A stretch of 64,000 nt of DNA, taken from NCBI GenBank assembly GCA_014860005.1, contig JACZKP010000177.1, positions 1 through 64,000 on the forward strand, written 5' to 3'. The notes under the pieces were generated by a model. The model made no database searches. It saw only the letters and a program-made list of their open reading frames with translations, and had not been told where the DNA came from. This document shows positions 8,550-56,290 of the stretch, piece by piece; positions within the stretch are counted from its first letter, which is position 1, and each line of letters opens with the position of its first letter. The stretch comes from Verrucomicrobiota bacterium. GTDB lineage: Bacteria; Verrucomicrobiota; Verrucomicrobiae; Limisphaerales; UBA11358. A program made the position numbers and the translations under genes.

Positions 8550-10361
8550 CTAATCGGCATTGCGCGTGGCTCTAAGTTGGTAGTAGCCCTCGCCGGCAGC
8601 CGGGACGTTGAGAGGATGAGTAATGGTTGCTCCCGTTCCGGGCAGGGATTCAATCAGTTCAAAGTTCGTGCCGAGCGACGGAGCGAAAAGGATTTCGTAC
8701 GTCACGTCTGCTTCGGAAGCGAACACCAAATTCAAGGTGCCGGGGGAGGCTTGAACTAATCCGAGCGCCGGGCGGACGGGCGGCTGCGGGCCGTCCGGGC
8801 AGAAGTTGAACTCGTTCATCGCGAGCGCCACCAGCGGCAGGTCGGTCGGCGTAAGCGCCGTGTTCGCGTCGGTCGCGGTAATGGCGAGGTTGACCGGCGT
8901 GGGCACCGTCGGCGGTGCAGTGGTTTCGCGCGTGGCGGGCGTGAGTTGGAACGCCGTTGGCGTGAACAGTCCACAATCCCGCGCGGGCGTCATGGTGGCG
9001 GCGTCCATTGAGAACACCTGCATGATCCCGCCGTTTAAGATGCTGACGGTGTAGAGCAGACTCTGGGTAGGGGGATCGAGCGAAACCCGAGTCGTCTCTG
9101 CGCCTCCCTCCAATCCGATCAGTTGAGGATTCTCGAGGTTGCCGTCCACCTTGAGCAAGTGACCGATTTGCCCGGTGGGGGGGCTACTGCTTTCCACGGC
9201 GAAGTAGGCGTGCGTGCCGTCCCAGCCTGCGAATTCGCCAATGAAGATGTTTCGATTTGTGATGACCAGGTCGGCTTGCACAAGAATGTCGCCCGTATCA
9301 CCATCAATCCGCATCAGGCCGAGGAAACTGCCTTCCAGGTTAAGATTGTATTCGTTGAACGCGCCAGCGGGAGTGCCCCCGGTAAGCCAGATGTTTTCAC
9401 CGTCGTAAACCGGGTTGCGTCCCAGGATGAAAATGTGGGTGACCGGCATGAATCCGTGGATGATCCTCACCCAGGCCAGCGAACCGTCGGCGTTATATTT
9501 GTACAGACCAGTAGCCCCGTCGGGATATCCGGTAAGGCGCGGCACCGATGTGGCAAACACCATTGAACCCTCCGGCCCGATGGACGGTGGGATGTCGCCC
9601 GGCCCCGGCCCCGCCTTCGCCCAGCGCACCGAACCGTCATTGTCAAGGCAGAGCAAATTATTGGGGCTGACCTGCAAGAGAAACCCGGTCTTATCGGGCA
9701 GACGGCGCAACATGAGGTCGGGCGGTTGAAACTCGCTCGGGGGATTCAGACCGGAATAATCCTTGTCAGCCAGCTTCGTGCCCTGCTCATCGAACAACAT
9801 CACGTTGACATTGCCCCCGAGATGTTGCGCCACGCCGATGACGTTGCCGGGATACCGGTCAATGGACATGACGTGCGAACCCTCGGCCAGCGGATTCGCC
9901 AGAACCGCTCGCAGATCAAACTCATAGCCGAAACGCTTGGCAAGCGTCCGGCCGTTGTAGATTCCAATACGGCCTTTTCCGTCAAGCGTGTAGGCGGCGA
10001 ACAAATTGTCCAAGTCCGCCAGCGCGAGCACGCGTTGATGCCGGGACCTGAAACCACCACTATTGGTGCCGCCGTCGAGATACGCGGCCCACTGCAGTTC
10101 GCCAAGATGATTGAACCGCGCGCCAGTAGCCGTGGTTTGCCCCGAGTTGAAACCCCGAATATCGGAAACGCCACTGAATTCAAACCCCAGACTGAAATCG
10201 TCCGTGAACAACTGTTTGATGGTCGGATCCTGAAGCGTCGTTAGAGCGGGATCCAACGCTTTGGACCAGGGAATGGCAGCCTCACCAGACTTGGTGAGAA
10301 ACGCGCAGAGTGTGAGGAGAAGTGAGAATTTCGCGGCTGGGTAGAGGGCTGAACGTAACAT
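8550..10361 (-). CDS. Secreted protein of unknown function, beta-propeller-like
   Basis: The 603-residue product begins with a typical signal peptide (MLRSALYPAAKFSLLL and a hydrophobic core ending EAA). The rest is rich in beta-strand-like stretches that alternate with GNV, DGT and DNDG turns, as in extracellular repeat or propeller proteins. A short proline/threonine linker near residue 475 precedes a C-terminal region. The end (VTYEILFAPSLGTNFELIES) resembles the conserved C-terminal module of many verrucomicrobial secreted proteins. No enzyme motif is visible. It is transcribed divergently from rnr. Confidence 0.6.
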   Translation of the reverse strand: MLRSALYPAAKFSLLLTLCAFLTKSGEAAIPWSKALDPALTTLQDPTIKQLFTDDFSLGFEFSGVSDIRGFNSGQTTATGARFNHLGELQWAAYLDGGTNSGGFRSRHQRVLALADLDNLFAAYTLDGKGRIGIYNGRTLAKRFGYEFDLRAVLANPLAEGSHVMSIDRYPGNVIGVAQHLGGNVNVMLFDEQGTKLADKDYSGLNPPSEFQPPDLMLRRLPDKTGFLLQVSPNNLLCLDNDGSVRWAKAGPGPGDIPPSIGPEGSMVFATSVPRLTGYPDGATGLYKYNADGSLAWVRIIHGFMPVTHIFILGRNPVYDGENIWLTGGTPAGAFNEYNLNLEGSFLGLMRIDGDTGDILVQADLVITNRNIFIGEFAGWDGTHAYFAVESSSPPTGQIGHLLKVDGNLENPQLIGLEGGAETTRVSLDPPTQSLLYTVSILNGGIMQVFSMDAATMTPARDCGLFTPTAFQLTPATRETTAPPTVPTPVNLAITATDANTALTPTDLPLVALAMNEFNFCPDGPQPPVRPALGLVQASPGTLNLVFASEADVTYEILFAPSLGTNFELIESLPGTGATITHPLNVPAAGEGYYQLRATRNAD

Positions 10362-10688
10362 GAGGCATATACAGATGAATGGTTAACACATGGTTTTTCT
10401 ACGGGATGGCTTATCGTAGTACTCAATGGAAGTTGTCGCAAGCGAAAGCTCAAACAAATGTTCAACCATCCCATGGTGATCCCTTCACGGATCATATTGA
10501 ACCGGAGGCTTTGCTCCGCGCCACTGACGCGCCGGGATTGAGTGGCCAGTGAGTCAACATCCCGAAGTTCCCTCAGCTTACAAAGGTGGTGCTGGTCAAA
10601 CGACCGCCTTAGTGCATACTAGCGATGGATCGCCGTGCGAGTCTCCCGGTTGCCGCCCGGCCAGTTGTCAGCGTCAAAACCCCGATTC
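10362..10688. other. Intergenic region between divergent genes
   Basis: About 330 bp separate the secreted-protein gene and rnr, which point away from each other, so promoters for both must lie here. I see an AT-richer stretch near 10380-10440 but no box that I would call with confidence. No gene is evident. Confidence 0.4.
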
Positions 10689-12932
10689 ATGAAAGACCAA
10701 ACAATCCGGCTGTTGAGCCACAAGAATTACGTCCCGTTGACTGCGGAAAACCTGCGGCGGCATCTGCGCGTACCGCCGGAACGCCAGCGGGAGTTCGAGC
10801 AAACGCTGCGTAAGCTGGAGCAAACCGGCCAGATCGCCCGCATCAAGGGCAACCGTTACATCCAGCCGCGCGAGGCGGACTTGATCCCCGGCCGGATTCG
10901 GATGAACCGCCAGGGCAAGGGGTTTCTCCAGCCGGACGACACGGGCCTCAAGGAAATCGCCATTCCCGAGAGCGCCACCGGCACGGCCTTGCACGAGGAC
11001 CGCGTACTCGTGCGGCGCGATGTCCGGCCCAAGGGCCTTCGGCCCGACGCCGCTGAACCCGCTACGGGAGCGGTGGTTCGAGTCCTGGAAAGACGGCGCA
11101 CACAGATCGTTGGCACCCTCCAACGAGGCCGTCAGTTTCTCTACGTCATTCCGGACGATCCTCGAATGCCTCACGATTTCTATGTACCGGAACCGCGCGA
11201 CATGGGCCGGCCCGTGCGCATGGGCGACAAGGTGGTGGTCGAGTTGCGCGAATGGGAATCGCGCCACACAAATCCCGAGGGCGAGATCATCGAAGTCCTT
11301 GGCGCACCGGACGACGAAGGGGTGGACATGCTTTCGGTGCTGCGCCAATACGATCTGCCACTGCATTTTCCGAAACCTGTTTTGAACGAGGCGCGCACCA
11401 TCGGCTCAACGGTTCATCCGCACGATCTGCCGGGCCGCGTGGACTGCCGGCGTCATCGCGTCATCACCATTGATCCCGACGATGCGAAGGATTTCGACGA
11501 CGCAATTTGTCTGGAGCGGGTGGCGCACGATCAATGGCGGCTCTGGGTTCACATTGCGGATGTCTCGCATTACGTGAAGCCCGGCACGGCGCTCGACACG
11601 GAGGCGCGGCGACGAGGCAACTCAACCTACCTTGTGGACCGGGTCATCCCGATGCTGCCGGAGGCGTTGAGCAACGAACTGTGCTCGCTCAAGCCGAACC
11701 TAGATCGCCTGACCAAATGCGTTGAATTCCTCATCACCAACGAGGGACGGGTATTGAACACGAAGTTTTATCCCGCGGTGATCCATTCGCAACGGCGCTT
11801 CACCTACGGCGAAGTGCTGGAGATTCTCCAACGTAAACCCACGTCCGATGCCATTGAGCAAATGCTGCATCAGGCGCACGAACTGGCGCAGCGCATCCGG
11901 CGGTCACGCTTCAAGGCCGGCTCGCTGGACCTGGACTTTCCCGAAACCAAAATCCGGCTGGATGATCGCGGGCGAATTCTGCGCATCGAGAAGACCGAGA
12001 ATGACGTTTCCCATCAGTTGATCGAGGAATGCATGTTGATGGCGAATGAGGCGGTGGCCACGCGGTTGATGGCGCAGCGCAGGCCGGCGGTTTATCGGGT
12101 CCACGAGTCGCCGGACGCGAAGCGTTTGCAGGAGTATCGCGAGGAAGTTTTGAGCCACAACGTGCCGTGTGGCAACCTCAGTCAGCCCGCCGAAGTGCAG
12201 AAGTTGTTAGCCCGCCTCAACAGCTTGCCTATTGGTCAGGCGCTCAAGATCGGTTTTCTGAAATCGCTTATGCGCGCGCGTTACGCGGTCGAGCCGCTGG
12301 GCCACTATGGGTTGGCCAAGAAGAAATACACGCACTTCACCTCGCCCATCCGTCGCTACGCCGACCTGGTGGTCCATCGCGCGCTCTTTGAAAAGAATCA
12401 CGGTTCAAACTCCGCGCTCAAGGAAACCGCCGAGCACATTTCCGTCAGCGAACGCAATTCCGCGGACGCCGAGCGCGACAGCAAGGACGTGAAACTGTTC
12501 GCATTCCTGAAAGCACAGTTGAAATCCGGCCGACCCGAGCGTTATCCCGCGCTCGTGACCGACGTCCGCAACTTCGGTTTCTTTGTGGACGTGCCCGGTC
12601 TGGCCATGAGCGGCCTCGTGCCGTTGTCCACGGTGGAGGATGACTTTTTTGTATTCGACGCCGCCCGCAATCTGCTCGTTGGACGCCGCACCCGGCGGAT
12701 TATCCGTCTCGGCGACAAAGTCACTGTGCAGGTGGCGAAGGTGGACAGCTTCAAGAAGCAGGTGGATTTCCGTCTGGCTACTGAGCGCAAATCCAACGGA
12801 GTGCGCTCCCCTGCACCACGGCAAAACCAGTCGCGCCCTTCCCAAGGTGATTCTGGGCGTCTCGCCGGAAGAACAACCTCACCCGCACCGCGCCAGAACC
12901 GGTCACGTCATTTCCAGCCCCGCCGACGATAG
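10689..12932 (+). CDS. rnr: Ribonuclease R
   Basis: This 3'-to-5' exoribonuclease degrades structured RNA and takes part in mRNA turnover and RNA quality control. Order of domains: N-terminal winged-helix and cold-shock regions, then the RNB catalytic domain with the metal-binding DPDDAKDFDDAI near residue 261, RRGNSTYLVDRVIPMLPE and HFTSPIRRYADLVVHR, and a C-terminal S1 domain (about residues 615-700). The tail is basic and low in complexity (SPAPRQNQSRP, PAPRQNRSRH), a known RNase R feature. I chose the ATG at 10689, which gives MKDQTIRLLSHKNY, over an upstream start at 10635. At 747 residues the length is normal. Confidence 0.95.
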   Translation: MKDQTIRLLSHKNYVPLTAENLRRHLRVPPERQREFEQTLRKLEQTGQIARIKGNRYIQPREADLIPGRIRMNRQGKGFLQPDDTGLKEIAIPESATGTALHEDRVLVRRDVRPKGLRPDAAEPATGAVVRVLERRRTQIVGTLQRGRQFLYVIPDDPRMPHDFYVPEPRDMGRPVRMGDKVVVELREWESRHTNPEGEIIEVLGAPDDEGVDMLSVLRQYDLPLHFPKPVLNEARTIGSTVHPHDLPGRVDCRRHRVITIDPDDAKDFDDAICLERVAHDQWRLWVHIADVSHYVKPGTALDTEARRRGNSTYLVDRVIPMLPEALSNELCSLKPNLDRLTKCVEFLITNEGRVLNTKFYPAVIHSQRRFTYGEVLEILQRKPTSDAIEQMLHQAHELAQRIRRSRFKAGSLDLDFPETKIRLDDRGRILRIEKTENDVSHQLIEECMLMANEAVATRLMAQRRPAVYRVHESPDAKRLQEYREEVLSHNVPCGNLSQPAEVQKLLARLNSLPIGQALKIGFLKSLMRARYAVEPLGHYGLAKKKYTHFTSPIRRYADLVVHRALFEKNHGSNSALKETAEHISVSERNSADAERDSKDVKLFAFLKAQLKSGRPERYPALVTDVRNFGFFVDVPGLAMSGLVPLSTVEDDFFVFDAARNLLVGRRTRRIIRLGDKVTVQVAKVDSFKKQVDFRLATERKSNGVRSPAPRQNQSRPSQGDSGRLAGRTTSPAPRQNRSRHFQPRRR

Positions 12933-50542: not shown

Positions 50543-50854
50543 ATGAACGCGGACTCAAAAGGGCTGAAGGCCCGACAGATGACAGCCCGGGGTGAAGCCC
50601 CGGGTTGGCGATTCACGGACAGTCCAAGCCCTGCAAGGGCGCAACAAGATTGGTACGCCGCCGCGCCCGAGCCATTGCGCGAAGCCTTTCAAGCCGCCAT
50701 CCAATCCGCCCAAGCCGCCGGCTATTCCGACTGGCTGGCTGCTGACGAAGCCGCCCTTGACTACATCGCTACGCGCATCGCGCCAAAGTTCGGCGTCTCG
50801 GCGGAAGTGATTGCGAGACGGTTGCGTGTTCAAACATTTTGGCCGCCAAGTTGA
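50543..50854 (+). pseudogene. Small gene fragment with palindromic insert, upstream of the NTPase gene
   Basis: Only the last 65 codons look protein-like (QQDWYAAAPEPLREAFQAAI, DEAALDYIATRIAPKFGVS). The first 35 codons are a palindromic repeat (50571-50640). The C-terminal part is reminiscent of the tail of ImmA/IrrE-type or other metallopeptidase-associated proteins, but this is only a suggestion. It ends 7 bp before the ATG of the next gene. Confidence 0.3.
50571..50640. repeat. Hairpin-rich repeat
   Basis: GGGCTGAAGGCCC and AGCCCGGGGTGAAGCCCCGGG are self-complementary. A partner AAGCCCTGCAAGGGCGCAAC follows. This is a second type of dispersed repeat, known to me from related genomes, and forms the start of the ORF at 50543. 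Confidence 0.6.
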
Positions 50855-50861
50855 AGCGCAG

Positions 50862-53800
50862 ATGCCAACGACTGGACAAAAGCAAATGATTCCGTGGAAG
50901 CGTTTTTGGTGTCCCTTCGGCGGGCCGATTCATGTTGGCGATCAGCTGCAGGGATTTCTCACCGACCCCGAAGGCGAATTCACCAAGCTCTACAATCCCG
51001 AACTTTTCACGCTGGATCAGTTGGCGACGGAATCCTGCCTGATTCTTTGCGGCGACCCCGGCATTGGCAAAAGCACGGTGATTCAGCAGCACAAGGACGC
51101 GCTAAAATCTTCGCTGGGTGAACGCGGGAACTTCATCCTGATTGATTTTCGGGATGTTCCCAGCGAGTCAGCTTTCACGCGCTGGACAGTTGATTCGCCC
51201 GATTGGCAAAGGTGGCGGGCTTCGACAGACAAGCAGCTTCTCGTCGTTGATGGAGTGGACGAAGGGTTGGTGAAGATTCCGGGTTTCGTCAGTTTCTTGG
51301 CAGCGTCACTTCGTAACGAACCGCTTGACCGGCTGAAACTCATCCTTGCGTGCCGCTCCGCCGAATGGCCGGTAAACGAAGGGCCGCAACTCATCTCGCT
51401 TTTTGGTAATTTCGAGAAGCCACCCATCTACGAACTGTGTCCGTTGCGGCAGTGCGATGCGGAACTGGCGGCGGAAAAGAACGGACTCAAACCTCACGAC
51501 TTCATTCAAAGCGTGTATCAGCAAAAGGTCGTCGGGATGGCTGCGCTGCCGACGACGCTGTTCTTCCTGCTCGACGAGTTTCGCGAAGGCGGTGGATTCA
51601 GCGGCACGCATCGCCAGCTTTACGAGCGCGGTTGCGAGCGGATGTCGCGGGAGATTGACGCGCGCCGCACCGAGGCCTTGCGACAACTTCGCAAAACGGA
51701 GCGTGTCTCATCGCCGCAGGAAATTTATGAGGCTGCGAGTCGTCTGGCTACACTGCTTCTTGTTTGCGGCAAATCGGCCATTCACACCGGAAAGCTTGAG
51801 GATGCTGACGCAGCCAGTGATTTGCATGTCAGTCAGGCTGCCGATTCGACTCTGACGGAAGACGTGATGCGTGATGCCATTGCATCTGCCCTTTTCACTT
51901 CACGCGGGCCGAGTCGGTTTGGTTTCGCTCACCAGACTTTTGCCGAGTGTCTGGCCTCGCAATTTCTGTCGCGCCTGCCGCTCGCTCAAATCCGCAGCGC
52001 CCTGTGTGCGCGTGACGGTCAGCAAGAGCACGTCATCCCGCAGTTGGCTGAAACCGCTGCGTGGGTCGCGGGCGTACGGGAAGATTTTTTCGATTACCTT
52101 TGCCAAATTGAGCCGGAGGTGCTTTTGCGGAGCGACGTGTCCAAAGTCCAGAACCACCGCAAAACCGCATTGGTGGAGGCGGTCTTGGAGAAGGTAAAGC
52201 GCGCCGAACTATTTGACGACCGGAACATCAGCCGTTTCTTTGACGCCCTCAAACATCCGGGGCTCGCTGCCCAGCTTCAGCCATTCATCACGAACAAAAC
52301 GCTGCACACGGTAGTGCGGCGGATGGCGATGAGTATAGCCGGCGACTGCAAAGAAGCTGAGCTTACAGATGTGCTGTTTGCCGTGCTCCACGACACCTCC
52401 GAAGCGCAGCATCTCCGGGATCAAGCGGCTCGCGAGCTTGAAGTATTGATTCCTGCAGCGCGGCTGCACGAACTGATTCCACTCGCTCTCGGACAAGTGG
52501 GGGCTGACCCCGATGAGGCCATACGCGGCTGTGCCATCCGCAAACTTGTTCCGGCTGTCTGGACTGTTTCGCAAGCGCTGGTGGCTATCCGTGCTCCGCG
52601 TAATACTAATTTCTTCGGTTCATATTGGGCACTCTTACACTATGACTTGCCGCGCCATCTAACTGAAGCCGACTTGCCCTTGGTGCTGGGTCGCATGATT
52701 CGTTGGACGAATTGCTTGGATACACTGAGTTGGTTTGAGAAACTGGCGCAGACGGCGTTCATGATGGCACTAAAAAACCTCCACAAGCGTAGCATCCGAA
52801 AAATAGCAGTTCGACTTTGGGTCGTGAAAACCCAGCGCCATCATCCGCTGCCAAACTCGAAAGAATCACCGGTCACCAAGCTGTTTGAATCCGACGTGAA
52901 TCTGCGGCGTGAGTTTGTTGCCGCTATTGTCAATGACCCGGCAACGCCGTCTGATGATTTTTACGTCGTCAATGGCCTTCGCGTTTCCATTTTCCTCAGC
53001 AGCGATTTCGACTGGGCTTTGAATCAAATCGCGCAATGCCCACTTGATCGGCGCGCGGCTTGGGCTACTCTGATTTCATTCGCCAGCCGACCAGACACCA
53101 CCTGCGCGTGTTGGGACTTATTCCTCCAGCGCATCGAGGAGATTCCCGAATTGAGAGCAAAGTTCGAGTGGTTGCGGGCTTGGGATTTAGACGAGCAGAT
53201 GGCACGCAACGCCAAGACTCAATGGTTGAAAAACCAGCGATTGATGAAGCAGCTTGAGCGGCCAAGAGAGAAACTGGATGTCGAAGCGCTGACGAAGGCT
53301 GCCCTCACCGACATCGCTACGGGAAAGACATTTCGTTGGATACACCTTTGCGACCTGCTGTCTCTGGAGAAGAATCAAACTCAGGTGATGCATCCACTTG
53401 AACACGATCTGACTGAATTTCCAGGTTGGAAAGTCGCTGACGAATCGCGACGAACCGACATTCGCGCCGCCGCCCGCAAATTCCTTCTCAATCACAGCGA
53501 TGGCCATACAGAGACCGGCGCACGAACGAATTACTCTGATCCTGGCTACATTGCCATTTGGTTTCTTCGGGACGAAGTGCGGACGGACAGCGCGCTGAAG
53601 CCGGCTGTAACGGCCAAATGGATGGAAGCATTGCTCGGGCAGTTCAACAATGGCAGCGACCATTATCAGGAAACTGCGGCGATGGCTTATGAATTGAATC
53701 CCGATGTAACGATTAAAAGCTTTCTCCGTGAAACGAAGGACGATGACCAAAAGCACGGGCGGATTCATTGCCTTTGGGGATTCAAGAAGGCTTGGGACTC

Positions 53801-55049
53801 ACGATTCACCGCCGCAACGCTTGGTTCAATTCGCGAAGGAACACTCAAAGCTGAAAGCATTGAGACGCTGCTAACCTTCCTCGGCGCGATTGCACCAAAA
53901 GAAGCCGCCGCTTGCGCACGCGAACTCCTTTCGCCCGAAGCAGTCGCCGACGCAACGTTGCAGGATCGAACGGTTGGCGTGTTGACGTCTTGCATTGGCG
54001 CAATGCCTGCGGCTGCATGGGATTTTGCGTGGCCGATTATCGAAGCTGACATGATTCTGGCGGAAAAGGCTTTACTCCGTGCGGCACACCGCTTGGATCA
54101 TGACCGGAAGAAATTTCTGCCGATGCTCACCGAGCGCCAGTTGGCCGATTTGTATTTGAAGTTGCATAGCTTGTTTCCGCCAGAAACCGACCCGCCGCGA
54201 CGAAATGAGGCTTCGTTTGTAACACCACGAGACGAGATCGTTCATTTTCGCAGCGACGTGATCAATACGCTGGAGAGCCGAGGCACAGAGGAGGCCTGCA
54301 AAGAACTGTTATGCCTAGCGAACGCGCTCCCCAAAGAAGGCGTGTGGCTGCGTTGGCGGCTTTACAACGCCCGCCTGAGCAAGCGGCGATTCGACTGGAG
54401 TCCGCCTCCGCCCAAAACCTTTCTGTTGCTCGCCAAGCGCACTGAGGGGCGTCTGGTTATGGATACTGACGATTTGCTGGAAGTGGTGATGGAGTCACTG
54501 AAACGATTCCAAACCCAGCTGACCCAAAGCACGCTGCCGAGAAGCGAACGGTTTTGGCACTGGGACGGTGCGGACAACAAACGGAACAATTTCAGACATC
54601 GCGACGAGCCCTTCCTCTCTGATGAAGTCGCCAGTTGGCTGCGCGATGACTTGAACCAGCGCGGAATCATAATCGGTCGGGAAGTCCAGACGCGCCGAGG
54701 TCAACGCACGGATGTCTATGTTGATGCGGTGGCGCGCGGTGATTCGAGTTCATCCATGCAAACCGTCACGGTGGTAATCGAAGTCAAAGGATGCTGGAAT
54801 GCCGAGGTGAGGACGGCTGTGGATTCCCAGCTTGTCGGCGACTACCTGCGCCCGAATGGACTGACGCATGGAATTTATCTAGTCGGCTGGTTCATGTGTG
54901 CTGCATGGGAGAAACCGCTGAACAAGCTCACAAGCACAACGCTGGAACTGGCCGAACAAGAAATCGCCCACCTTGTTTCCGCTTATGACGGCAAAGCCAA
55001 TCCTGAACGAGTGAGCGGAGTGGTTTTGGACTGCCGATATCCAAGTTAA
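50862..55049 (+). CDS. Large NACHT/STAND-like NTPase with C-terminal PD-(D/E)XK nuclease, putative defence protein
   Basis: The 1395-residue protein (ATG at 50862; in-frame ATGs at 50811 and 50886 are alternatives) has Walker A GDPGIGKST at residues 64-72 and Walker B LLVVDGVDEG at 126-135, then ACRSAEWP as sensor-like Arg. FGFAHQTFAECLASQFL fits the NACHT/STAND end of the ATPase. About 850 residues of helical, probably HEAT-type repeats follow. The C-terminus is a PD-(D/E)XK nuclease: GREVQ, Asp in RTDVYVDAV (residue 1284) and IEVKG (Glu1307-x-Lys1309), then QLVGDYL. Such architecture suggests a sensor-ATPase that fires a nuclease on infection. No partner gene is evident. The role is inferred from domains. 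Confidence 0.8.
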   Translation: MPTTGQKQMIPWKRFWCPFGGPIHVGDQLQGFLTDPEGEFTKLYNPELFTLDQLATESCLILCGDPGIGKSTVIQQHKDALKSSLGERGNFILIDFRDVPSESAFTRWTVDSPDWQRWRASTDKQLLVVDGVDEGLVKIPGFVSFLAASLRNEPLDRLKLILACRSAEWPVNEGPQLISLFGNFEKPPIYELCPLRQCDAELAAEKNGLKPHDFIQSVYQQKVVGMAALPTTLFFLLDEFREGGGFSGTHRQLYERGCERMSREIDARRTEALRQLRKTERVSSPQEIYEAASRLATLLLVCGKSAIHTGKLEDADAASDLHVSQAADSTLTEDVMRDAIASALFTSRGPSRFGFAHQTFAECLASQFLSRLPLAQIRSALCARDGQQEHVIPQLAETAAWVAGVREDFFDYLCQIEPEVLLRSDVSKVQNHRKTALVEAVLEKVKRAELFDDRNISRFFDALKHPGLAAQLQPFITNKTLHTVVRRMAMSIAGDCKEAELTDVLFAVLHDTSEAQHLRDQAARELEVLIPAARLHELIPLALGQVGADPDEAIRGCAIRKLVPAVWTVSQALVAIRAPRNTNFFGSYWALLHYDLPRHLTEADLPLVLGRMIRWTNCLDTLSWFEKLAQTAFMMALKNLHKRSIRKIAVRLWVVKTQRHHPLPNSKESPVTKLFESDVNLRREFVAAIVNDPATPSDDFYVVNGLRVSIFLSSDFDWALNQIAQCPLDRRAAWATLISFASRPDTTCACWDLFLQRIEEIPELRAKFEWLRAWDLDEQMARNAKTQWLKNQRLMKQLERPREKLDVEALTKAALTDIATGKTFRWIHLCDLLSLEKNQTQVMHPLEHDLTEFPGWKVADESRRTDIRAAARKFLLNHSDGHTETGARTNYSDPGYIAIWFLRDEVRTDSALKPAVTAKWMEALLGQFNNGSDHYQETAAMAYELNPDVTIKSFLRETKDDDQKHGRIHCLWGFKKAWDSRFTAATLGSIREGTLKAESIETLLTFLGAIAPKEAAACARELLSPEAVADATLQDRTVGVLTSCIGAMPAAAWDFAWPIIEADMILAEKALLRAAHRLDHDRKKFLPMLTERQLADLYLKLHSLFPPETDPPRRNEASFVTPRDEIVHFRSDVINTLESRGTEEACKELLCLANALPKEGVWLRWRLYNARLSKRRFDWSPPPPKTFLLLAKRTEGRLVMDTDDLLEVVMESLKRFQTQLTQSTLPRSERFWHWDGADNKRNNFRHRDEPFLSDEVASWLRDDLNQRGIIIGREVQTRRGQRTDVYVDAVARGDSSSSMQTVTVVIEVKGCWNAEVRTAVDSQLVGDYLRPNGLTHGIYLVGWFMCAAWEKPLNKLTSTTLELAEQEIAHLVSAYDGKANPERVSGVVLDCRYPS

Positions 55050-55066: not shown

Positions 55067-55385
55067 ATGTCTCCCGTAGTTCCGTCCGTGGAGATTTACA
55101 CGGACGGCGGATGCAAACCCAACCTCGGCCCGGGCGGAGACAATTTGATTTCCCCAACAACCCTCATCCGGCTTCTGGCGGCCCTGACCCGTCGCTTCGC
55201 GCCACCCTCTCCCATCAGATGGGCGAGGGGAATCTCCCGCTCCCGCGAGCGAAGGAACGCGGCGCAGTGTTGTTGCATCCCAAAAAACGCAAAGAAGTCA
55301 TTGGCGAGTTTCGGTTGACCACCAACAACCAGATGGAAATCTTCGCCGCCATGGCGGGCCTCGAAATGTTGAAGCAACGCTGCCA
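55067..55385 (+). pseudogene. RNase HI remnant 1, interrupted by a repeat
   Basis: Codons for [17 protein letters not shown] are followed by about 125 bp of foreign sequence with the pattern CCCTCATCCGGCTTCTGGCG, then the frame resumes with AVLLHPKKRKEVIGEFRL and TTNNQMEIFAAMAGLEMLKQ. These are the first and second core segments of RNase HI (Asp and Glu of the active site). The end is lost at 55385, just before the antitoxin gene. It cannot yield an intact enzyme. Confidence 0.8.
55136..55260. repeat. Dispersed repeat inserted in RNase HI remnant 1
   Basis: CCCTCATCCGGCTTCTGGCG and CTCTCCCATCAGATGGGCGA resemble a common dispersed intergenic sequence. It interrupts the RNase HI reading frame after GPGG. 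The CTCTCCCATC part is a short inverted repeat with GATGGGCGAG. Confidence 0.65.
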
Positions 55386-55447: not shown

Positions 55448-55633
55448 ATGAGCACGGTAGCCGAAATCAGCGACGCCATTGAAAAGCTGGACGTGAAGGA
55501 ACAGGTCGAACTGCTTCGAATTCTGCCGCAGCACCTGAAGATTTCACCTGAGGACCTCGCGTGGTCGCGACTGGCCGAACCCGCCTTTGAATTCTGGAAC
55601 AATCCCGAGGATGCCATCTACGACAAGCTATAA
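55448..55633 (+). CDS. Putative addiction-module antitoxin
   Basis: The 61-residue protein MSTVAEISDAIEKLDVKEQV is a small acidic helical protein that ends WNNPEDAIYDKL, the typical C-terminal pattern of antitoxins of PemK/MazF-type pairs (DUF2281-like or VapB-like). It overlaps the toxin start by 23 bp, so the two are co-translated. It should bind the toxin and block its RNase. The family is inferred from size, sequence pattern and position. Confidence 0.7.
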   Translation: MSTVAEISDAIEKLDVKEQVELLRILPQHLKISPEDLAWSRLAEPAFEFWNNPEDAIYDKL

Positions 55634-55964
55634 ACGGGGCGACGTCGTTTTTGTTCCCTTTCCCTTCACCGACCTGAGCAATGCAAAGCAGCGACCGGCT
55701 TTGGTCGTCTCGGCGGACGCCTTCAACGCCACCCGTGATGACGTGCTCGTGGCAGCGATTACCTCACAAGTTCCCGCACAGCTCGCTGCGGATGAATTCA
55801 TGATTCCAACGTGCGATCTGGCCGCGTGCGGACTGCCCAAGCCGTCCATTCTCAGATTGAGCAAGCTTGTGGCTCTGCATCGGCAACTGGTCATCAAGCG
55901 CGTGGGCGCTCTGCCAGTTGCCACGCTCACGCAGGTCATGGTGCAGTTGCGGCAGCTATTTTGA
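55611..55964 (+). CDS. PemK/MazF-type mRNA interferase toxin
   Basis: The 117-residue protein has the MazF/PemK core: YKRGDVVFVPFPFTDLSN at the start, KQRPALVVSAD, then VAAITSQVP and a C-terminal KLVALHRQLVIKRVGAL. MazF-type enzymes cut single-stranded mRNA. The start ATG at 55611 overlaps the antitoxin. A longer frame from 55587 is open but not needed. The pair lies between two damaged RNase HI copies. Confidence 0.85.
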   Translation: MPSTTSYKRGDVVFVPFPFTDLSNAKQRPALVVSADAFNATRDDVLVAAITSQVPAQLAADEFMIPTCDLAACGLPKPSILRLSKLVALHRQLVIKRVGALPVATLTQVMVQLRQLF

Positions 55965-56036: not shown

Positions 56037-56290
56037 ATGAACTACAATTCAACGCCCCACGTTGAGATTTACACGGACGGCGGATGCGAACCTAATCCCG
56101 GCCCGGGCGGCTATGGTGCGGTGTTGATTCATCCCAAGAAGCGCGCCGAGGTCAGCCCAGTGGGATAAGGGACGCCGAGGCTCTATTGCATCACCAGCCT
56201 CCACCTATCCCACGGGGCAGGCGGCGGCTTTCGGTTGACCACCAATAACCGGATGAAATCTTTGCCGCCATTGCGGGGCGCGCGGCCTTT
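56037..56290 (+). pseudogene. RNase HI remnant 2, interrupted and frameshifted
   Basis: [20 protein letters not shown] then [19 protein letters not shown] is the start of RNase HI. About 70 bp (roughly 56155-56225) of a palindromic sequence (AGTGGGATA ... TATCCCAC) follow. The frame resumes GFRLTTNNRM and then lacks one base compared with the other copy (CGGATGAAATC against CAGATGGAAATC), which shifts the frame. It is the second decayed copy. Its insertion site differs from that of remnant 1. Confidence 0.8.

Follow-up and report, generated by a model that had tools for sequence, protein, structure and literature searches.

The stretch of DNA analysed here (hereafter the window: 64,000 nucleotides, positions 1 to 64,000 of contig JACZKP010000177.1 in the Verrucomicrobiota assembly GCA_014860005.1) encodes, at 50862-55049 of its plus strand, a single protein of 1395 residues in which a NACHT-type STAND ATPase comes first, an alpha-solenoid follows and a predicted PD-(D/E)XK nuclease stands last. 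We propose, with a probability of roughly 0.77, that it is a single-protein, NLR-like receptor against invaders, built with reversed polarity and carrying an exchangeable C-terminal effector slot behind a conserved junction motif. Sequence comparison and structural models show the domain order, the conserved ATPase and nuclease residues, the NLR-like and restriction-enzyme-like folds, the repeated exchange of the tail and the association of the relatives with defence genes; a ligand, oligomerisation, DNA cleavage, cell death and the sensing of, and protection against, phage are what we infer beyond them. The features of the gene are as follows (coordinates of the window, residue numbers of the 1395-residue protein):

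50862..55049, plus strand: whole gene, NACHT, alpha-solenoid and C-terminal PD-(D/E)XK nuclease (open reading frame of 1395 residues; alternative ATG at 50886, giving 1387)
50895..50969, plus strand: N-terminal segment WKRFWCP...G.L.DPE before the P-loop, residues 12-36 (alignment of 58 sequences)
51009..51428, plus strand: NACHT nucleotide-binding domain, about residues 50-189 (Pfam AAA/NACHT matches below cut-off; model; structural alignment to NLRC4/NLRP3/NOD2)
51051..51077, plus strand: Walker A GDPGIGKST, residues 64-72 (sequence, 58-sequence alignment)
51237..51266, plus strand: Walker B LLVVDGVDEG, residues 126-135 (sequence, 58-sequence alignment)
51429..52301, plus strand: helical and winged-helix part of the NACHT module, about residues 190-480 (most NLR chains align up to about residue 440-490)
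51924..51968, plus strand: FAHQTFAECLASQFL motif, residues 355-369 (sequence; H357 in 118 of 118 aligned sequences)
52209..54371, plus strand: alpha-solenoid, putative sensor, about residues 450-1170 (model; conservation)
54381..54449, plus strand: junction where relatives switch effector, about residues 1174-1196 (pairwise scaffold comparisons)
54450..55046, plus strand: C-terminal PD-(D/E)XK nuclease domain, about residues 1197-1395 (model, structural alignment)
54681..54683, plus strand: Glu1274, invariant, ahead of the catalytic strand (58-sequence alignment)
54711..54713, plus strand: predicted catalytic Asp1284 (58-sequence alignment)
54780..54788, plus strand: predicted catalytic Glu1307-x-Lys1309 (58-sequence alignment)
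54828..54830, plus strand: Gln1323, identical in 58 of 58 (58-sequence alignment)

Of the 7990 candidates scored in a search of 5.8 billion proteins, 202 were homologues, and 57 of the best 120 listed (27-85% identical to the window's protein) were aligned with it; the order NACHT, solenoid, nuclease is kept in 58 of these 58 sequences. The stretch ahead of Walker A measures 63 residues in the window's protein and 24-167 across the 58 (median 57 and maximum 167 in the 249 nuclease-tailed proteins described below), so that an N-terminal effector has no room in this protein or its 57 relatives. The same stretch holds the WKRFWCP...DPE motif (W12, R14, F15, W16, G31, L33 and P36 being almost invariant), which is mostly kept across the set and to which we assign no role. 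As for the start of the reading frame (1395 codons from the ATG at 50862 to the stop ending at 55049), the database entry of this same protein (P0002, 1387 residues) lacks 8 residues, which fits the next ATG, so translation may begin at either 50862 or 50886.

In the ATPase part, Walker A and Walker B (DxxDE) are both intact, as in NACHT/NLR-type STAND proteins, and G64, P66, G69, D130, D133, E134, R165 and H357 are identical in all 58 sequences (the Walker A lysine, K70, in 57). The AlphaFold2 model of about residues 3-490 shows the succession of nucleotide-binding, helical and winged-helix domains found in NLRs and resembles NLRC4, NLRP3 and NOD2, with NLRs leading the structural alignments. 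Pfam gave weak P-loop/NACHT signals (NACHT at 15.2 bits, under the gathering score of 26.7). A PADLOC scan of the protein returned nothing beyond a weak P-loop match (E 0.08) and phmmer against the sequences of the Protein Data Bank no match, both of them uninformative; that Avs and bNACHT entries are absent among the structural matches listed for the NACHT model says nothing on kinship. The solenoid that follows is the least conserved part of the 58-sequence set (pairwise identity of 0.22-0.28 at residues 651-750, 801-850 and 951-1050, compared with 0.36-0.55 in residues 51-500 and 0.45-0.57 in residues 1201-1350), which fits the expectation for a sensor.

At the C-terminus, E1249, E1274, D1284, E1307, K1309 and Q1323 show no variation across the 58 sequences, and the predicted model has the alpha/beta core of the PD-(D/E)XK superfamily, with D ... 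(D/E)xK placed on the central strands; PD-(D/E)XK restriction enzymes head its VIA-align structural matches. Small GTPases (Ypt7, Rab), which appear from rank 23 of those matches, were read as a common alpha/beta arrangement. A plain Foldseek search of the nuclease model gave no match at E <= 0.001 and listed an acetyl-CoA carboxylase first; we set these rows aside because the root-mean-square deviations were large (up to 27), the probabilities low and VIA-align favoured restriction-type enzymes. For the nuclease tail of the window's protein, Pfam gave nothing at E <= 0.1. Some nuclease-tailed relatives (P0071, P0074 and others) are annotated with a precomputed domain, PF28130, which our local Pfam run did not find in P0074 or P0103.

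These results bear out what the original prediction, made from the letters and their reading frames, had said of the protein: a single open reading frame at 50862..55049, a STAND-type ATPase almost directly at its start with GDPGIGKST and LLVVDGVDEG, helical repeats in its middle and the nuclease signature Asp1284, Glu1307-x-Lys1309 at its very end. The motifs lie where it had placed them and are conserved, AlphaFold2 models and structural alignment back the order of ATPase, solenoid and nuclease, a nuclease fold was obtained at the C-terminus, and homologues of the same order, which it had suggested to look for, occur throughout the 57 aligned relatives.

The stronger evidence that the C-terminal tail is an effector comes from relatives in which something else replaces the nuclease, namely CHAT, TIR, hydrolase, Schlafen-AlbA or membrane tails. 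When the 58 sequences were joined by 60 from the loci of a genome-collection scan (described below), D..ExK was kept in 112 of 118 and missing in six (L018, L020, L021, L022, L025 and L050), which have the receptor in common over about 1180-1190 residues and differ at their ends: L021 ends in a CHAT protease (PF12770, 32 bits, cut-off 24), L025 in an alpha/beta-hydrolase-like tail (below cut-off) and L018, L020, L022 and L050 in other tails. Two queries restricted to the scaffold matched 2423 of 7995 and 640 of 7991 scored candidates (best 120 listed each); among the best 120 of the 2423, a CHAT domain is precomputed for 24 and a TIR domain for 3. Clustering by BLAST of the tails of 356 unique scaffold proteins of at least 1150 residues separated nuclease (249), helical (39, a cluster that may comprise more than one domain), CHAT (25), transmembrane (19), alpha/beta hydrolase (14) and TIR (3) classes, besides one Schlafen-AlbA tail (P0300), one unknown domain (P0281) and five short or unassigned tails, counts which describe the proteins fetched through these queries and not natural proportions. 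What appears to be new here is this variation of the C-terminal module among 356 proteins with a common receptor scaffold.

The classes are coherent in their diagnostic residues: the aligned catalytic set is present in 243 of the 249 nuclease tails, His and Cys in 25/25 CHAT tails (21 by pattern, 4 by eye), WYDE in 3/3 TIR tails, and a 19-residue window of Kyte-Doolittle hydropathy >= 1.6 in 15 of the 19 membrane tails (the other 4 being without a strong hydrophobic stretch). The hydrolase label was given because AHSFG occurs in 14/14 members, together with Pfam matches below cut-off (Abhydrolase_1 at 21.1 of 25.8 bits, another at 18.9 of 27). Among representative tails, Pfam matches over the cut-off were obtained for CHAT (46.7 bits), SLFN_AlbA_2 (51.2) and TIR_2 (76.8); at E <= 0.1 there was none for the P0197 nuclease, the HyoA-type tail of L122, P0281 or the membrane tail, and the helical tail gave insignificant matches. 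The C-terminal 188 residues of P0281, which have no Pfam match and sit on a scaffold 61% identical to that of the nuclease-tailed P0188, are a possible undescribed effector. Glycine/asparagine-rich stretches (GDQIGTQHNYA; NSPNSPINAPVGTSG), which look like signalling or adaptor motifs, precede the helical part (in P0131, P0185 and others) or the membrane part (in P0172 and others).

Pairs of closely similar scaffolds with unrelated tails are particularly telling. Scaffold identity amounts to 92.6% over 1203 residues between P0125 (CHAT) and P0130 (helical), 89.1% between P0172 (membrane) and P0185 (helical), 82.2% between P0300 (AlbA) and P0302 (nuclease), 81.0% between P0177 (membrane) and P0197 (nuclease), 78.8% between P0218 (CHAT) and P0225 (TIR) and 76.6% between P0133 (CHAT) and P0312 (nuclease). 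In these pairs the high identity runs up to the motif RR-x-TW-x-P-x-x-PE-x-x-LQ-x-V (about residues 1174-1196 in the window's protein), with no meaningful alignment beyond it. On a FastTree phylogeny of 351 scaffolds (five proteins whose tails are short or unassigned, L050, P0154, P0018, P0203 and P0223, were left out) the tail class changes 29 times, against a least possible 7 and a shuffled mean of 98.8, and on a quick IQ-TREE phylogeny of 184 rows kept after thinning 27 times (shuffled mean 65.2), these being counts that cannot separate gain from loss, on trees that both carried warnings of uneven composition and, for FastTree, of long branches. When strongly supported FastTree branches alone are counted, the helical class still requires at least 15 changes, the CHAT class 11, the nuclease class 8 and the membrane class 6; hydrolase and TIR tails have perhaps a single origin each. 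Chimeric metagenome assembly was considered as the source of the exchange and rejected, because there are 27-29 changes, because supported branches alone force many of them and because, among records chosen for being named isolates or large contigs, the scaffold of the CHAT-tailed L146 (G876), which lies on a contig no shorter than 5.84 Mb, shares 88.2% identity with that of the helical-tailed Nostoc sphaeroides protein P0131. Altogether, trees and pairs indicate that the C-terminal module has been exchanged recently and repeatedly on this one scaffold. It is seen in the wider family, chiefly in cyanobacteria (with the hydrolase tails around an Acidobacteriia metagenome-assembled genome), and the window's own relatives are nuclease-tailed in 58 of 58.

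Regarding the distribution of the gene, the best 80 of 97 confirmed stretches in the genome-collection scan gave at least 79 loci, in Verrucomicrobiota, cyanobacteria, Paenibacillus, Planctomycetota, Acidobacteria, Actinobacteria, Bacteroidota, Pseudomonadota, Chloroflexi, ANME-2 archaea and others. Plasmid records matched in 22 cases, 16 of them typed conjugative and 7 covering at least 80% of the query; none of the phage records searched with the gene matched. For two NCBIfam families named as antiphage, EruA and HyoA (compared at the end of the text), matches of EruA type were found in 15 of 288 genomes from the phylum of the Verrucomicrobiales genome G001 (one over the cut-off) and of HyoA type in 23 of 398 genomes from the phylum of G302, a Crenobacter (7 over the cut-off), with 0 of 14 control genomes in either case; a DNA search with the HyoA-type gene of L122 and the EruA-type gene of L087 found no match in E. 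coli genomes. One EruA-type copy, L088 (G177; 821 bits, below the cut-off), has one in-frame stop. In another Verrucomicrobiales genome, at L077 (about 10001-10724 of G001:C17), all that is left corresponds to residues about 4-149 and 1302-1384; the N-terminal pieces are interrupted by stops, and this locus appears to be a decayed copy with an internal deletion.

The neighbourhoods of the relatives were surveyed through 330 open reading frames lying no more than 5 kb from 48 of the 79 loci, where PADLOC strongly matched BREX, DISARM, Wadjet (Jet), Zorya, AbiE, AbiL, Avs3a, Dpd, MADS and type IV restriction genes. In a paired control over 14 genomes, 124 neighbouring frames matched 50 PADLOC families (E <= 1e-20) and 122 control frames 7; since PADLOC families overlap, 50 against 7 is a ratio of signals and not of genes. 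The control stretches share a contig with the gene and keep a distance of at least about 38 kb from it; 122 of their 184 frames were used (no more than the first nine of any stretch, with 14 of the 15 stretches represented, L112 being dropped as its partner L037 is missing in the case set), and the case set leaves out 2 very long frames of 126.

In the window itself, the original prediction had placed the gene in an accessory segment beside a toxin-antitoxin pair and wrecked genes, and this holds. A MazF/PemK-like toxin (PF02452, 63.6 bits) is the sole defence-like neighbour found; a 61-residue antitoxin-like frame overlaps its start (read by eye), the pair lying at 55448-55633 and 55587-55964. 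Two broken fragments with YTDGGC-PN-GPGG (about 55088-55385 and 56061-56280), which we take to be RNase HI, flank the pair like a disrupted duplication. A frame of 103 residues (50543-50854) ends 7 bases upstream of the gene; its end is weakly ImmA/IrrE-peptidase-like (E 0.01, below cut-off), and it is perhaps a remnant. GC content at third codon positions (GC3) is 0.607 in the gene, compared with 0.70-0.75 in six neighbouring genes, and is also low in MazF (0.651) and in the 103-residue frame (0.625), as expected for acquired DNA. A PADLOC scan of two neighbours in the window found no match.

Some observations favour readings other than an NLR-like receptor with an effector cassette. Sequence-specific restriction enzymes are the best structural matches of the nuclease model, McrBC also being among the matches, and the STAND ATPase model also aligns with the ORC/Cdc6 DNA-binding ATPases, both of which suit a restriction-like enzyme whose PD-(D/E)XK domain, together with the solenoid, would recognise and cut invading DNA, the NACHT module serving as a motor or licensing switch of McrBC type, with no sensing of phage proteins. 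We consider this unlikely, since NLRs lead the structural alignments and a DNA-recognising C-terminus leaves the CHAT, TIR, hydrolase, AlbA and membrane tails on the same scaffold unexplained. A further observation is that the window holds no evident defence island, as would suit a switch for stress, plasmid control or housekeeping whose nuclease acts on host DNA or RNA. The patchy presence in genomes of the phylum and on plasmids, the defence genes around relatives in excess of the control, the lower GC3, the decayed copy at L077 and the effector exchange make such a role very improbable, and homologues lying steadily in core operons with a housekeeping role did not turn up in the data examined. 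The defence role put forward in the original prediction is indirectly supported, by kinship to EruA and HyoA, by the patchy spread (plasmids included) and by the neighbours of the relatives.

Proteases, TIR enzymes, nucleases and membrane tails have little in common except activation by crowding, so the simplest account is one in which the solenoid binds a trigger, the NACHT modules can then assemble and the tails are brought together. In the resting state, the NACHT module would hold ADP and the solenoid would keep the protein inactive; a ligand (most likely a phage protein or a product of infection) would bind the solenoid and lead to exchange of ADP for ATP; oligomerisation driven by the NACHT module would then bring the C-terminal PD-(D/E)XK domains together; and the assembled nuclease domains would cut DNA and thereby halt the replication of the phage, with death or stalling of the cell as a probable result. 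More broadly, we think it likely that the protein belongs to a large NLR-like superfamily of bacteria and archaea with reversed polarity, where NACHT and solenoid stay constant and a C-terminal killing cassette (nucleases, CHAT proteases, TIR, hydrolases, Schlafen-AlbA, membrane helices and small helical adaptor-like tails) is exchanged at one junction motif, which would mean activation by proximity at the solenoid's outer end and not by an N-terminal assembly hub. If this is true, the receptor is a ready-made platform for attaching chosen effectors. The natural chimeras, with scaffolds up to 92.6% identical, would have the same receptor, and perhaps the same trigger, with a different output, and allow the way in which NLR-type activation is transmitted to be tested directly. 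Additionally, the 2423 scaffold matches make up a large pool of candidate defence genes, many of those listed being named only "hypothetical", "NACHT" or "CHAT".

In animal NLRs, leucine-rich repeats stand where this protein has its solenoid, and a CARD or PYD is N-terminal, with no C-terminal enzyme; the likeness lies in the modelled fold of about residues 3-490. Bacterial NACHT/STAND defence proteins are described, in the available portions of PMC12169576 and PMC10907252, with an N-terminal effector, a central NACHT/NTPase and a C-terminal sensor, and the available text of the DefensePredictor paper (PMC13092281) refers to N-terminal effector activation. Avs (AVAST) and bNACHT proteins share the STAND/NACHT receptor with the window's protein, and, according to the part of PMC12169576 available, bNACHT25 and bNACHT32 also have a PD-(D/E)XK effector. 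Nevertheless, their effector is N-terminal and their sensor a C-terminal repeat domain, whereas here about 60 residues precede the P-loop with no effector among them, the solenoid (a putative sensor) sits between NACHT and effector, and the effector comes last; a widespread effector-last class contrasts with the order described in those two papers. The nearest published statement found is that GT4 glycosyltransferase domains are often C-terminal in STAND proteins (PMC8195603, in the portion available). Our literature search found no statement on exchange of C-terminal effectors in NACHT proteins, with the main bNACHT and Avs papers outside its coverage and an earlier description possible; the accessible part of PMC7159879 has no bearing on it.

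The closest named relatives are EruA (NF058535, "NACHT domain-containing antiphage protein EruA") and HyoA (NF058534, also a "NACHT domain-containing antiphage protein" in NCBIfam). Antiphage activity of EruA is known here from the name of the NCBI model alone; no paper naming antiphage EruA or HyoA was found in our search, the EruA in the available text of PMC12839154 being a SlyA-like regulator, and neither "eru" nor "hyo" occurs in the accessible text of PMC13092281. The EruA profile matches the window's protein over nearly its full length (residues 51-1345, E 3.2e-72), and L087, the EruA-type protein compared, has the same order, with NACHT near the N-terminus, and the same catalytic residues (D...ExK...Q) at its C-terminal end. 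One could thus regard the protein as a member of this named antiphage family and nothing more, a reading we find distinctly improbable: the match reaches 244.2 bits of the 1000 required, HyoA matches too, six of seven further proteins scanned fall below the EruA cut-off (L087 alone passes), and exchange of effectors is absent from the description of either family. HyoA has the same order, and the 7 proteins found over its cut-off carry a C-terminal D..ExK; its profile gives 148.5 of 1200 bits, the best match being confined to the NACHT/solenoid part. Judged by these profiles, the window's protein is a distant relative of EruA and HyoA, outside both equivalogs. The original prediction had called the effector-last order a different architecture; it does depart from the order of Avs and bNACHT, but it is not peculiar to this protein, being common to EruA, HyoA and 249 proteins of our set. 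As EruA and HyoA have the same domain order, we regard the window's protein as a variant and not as a new kind of system.

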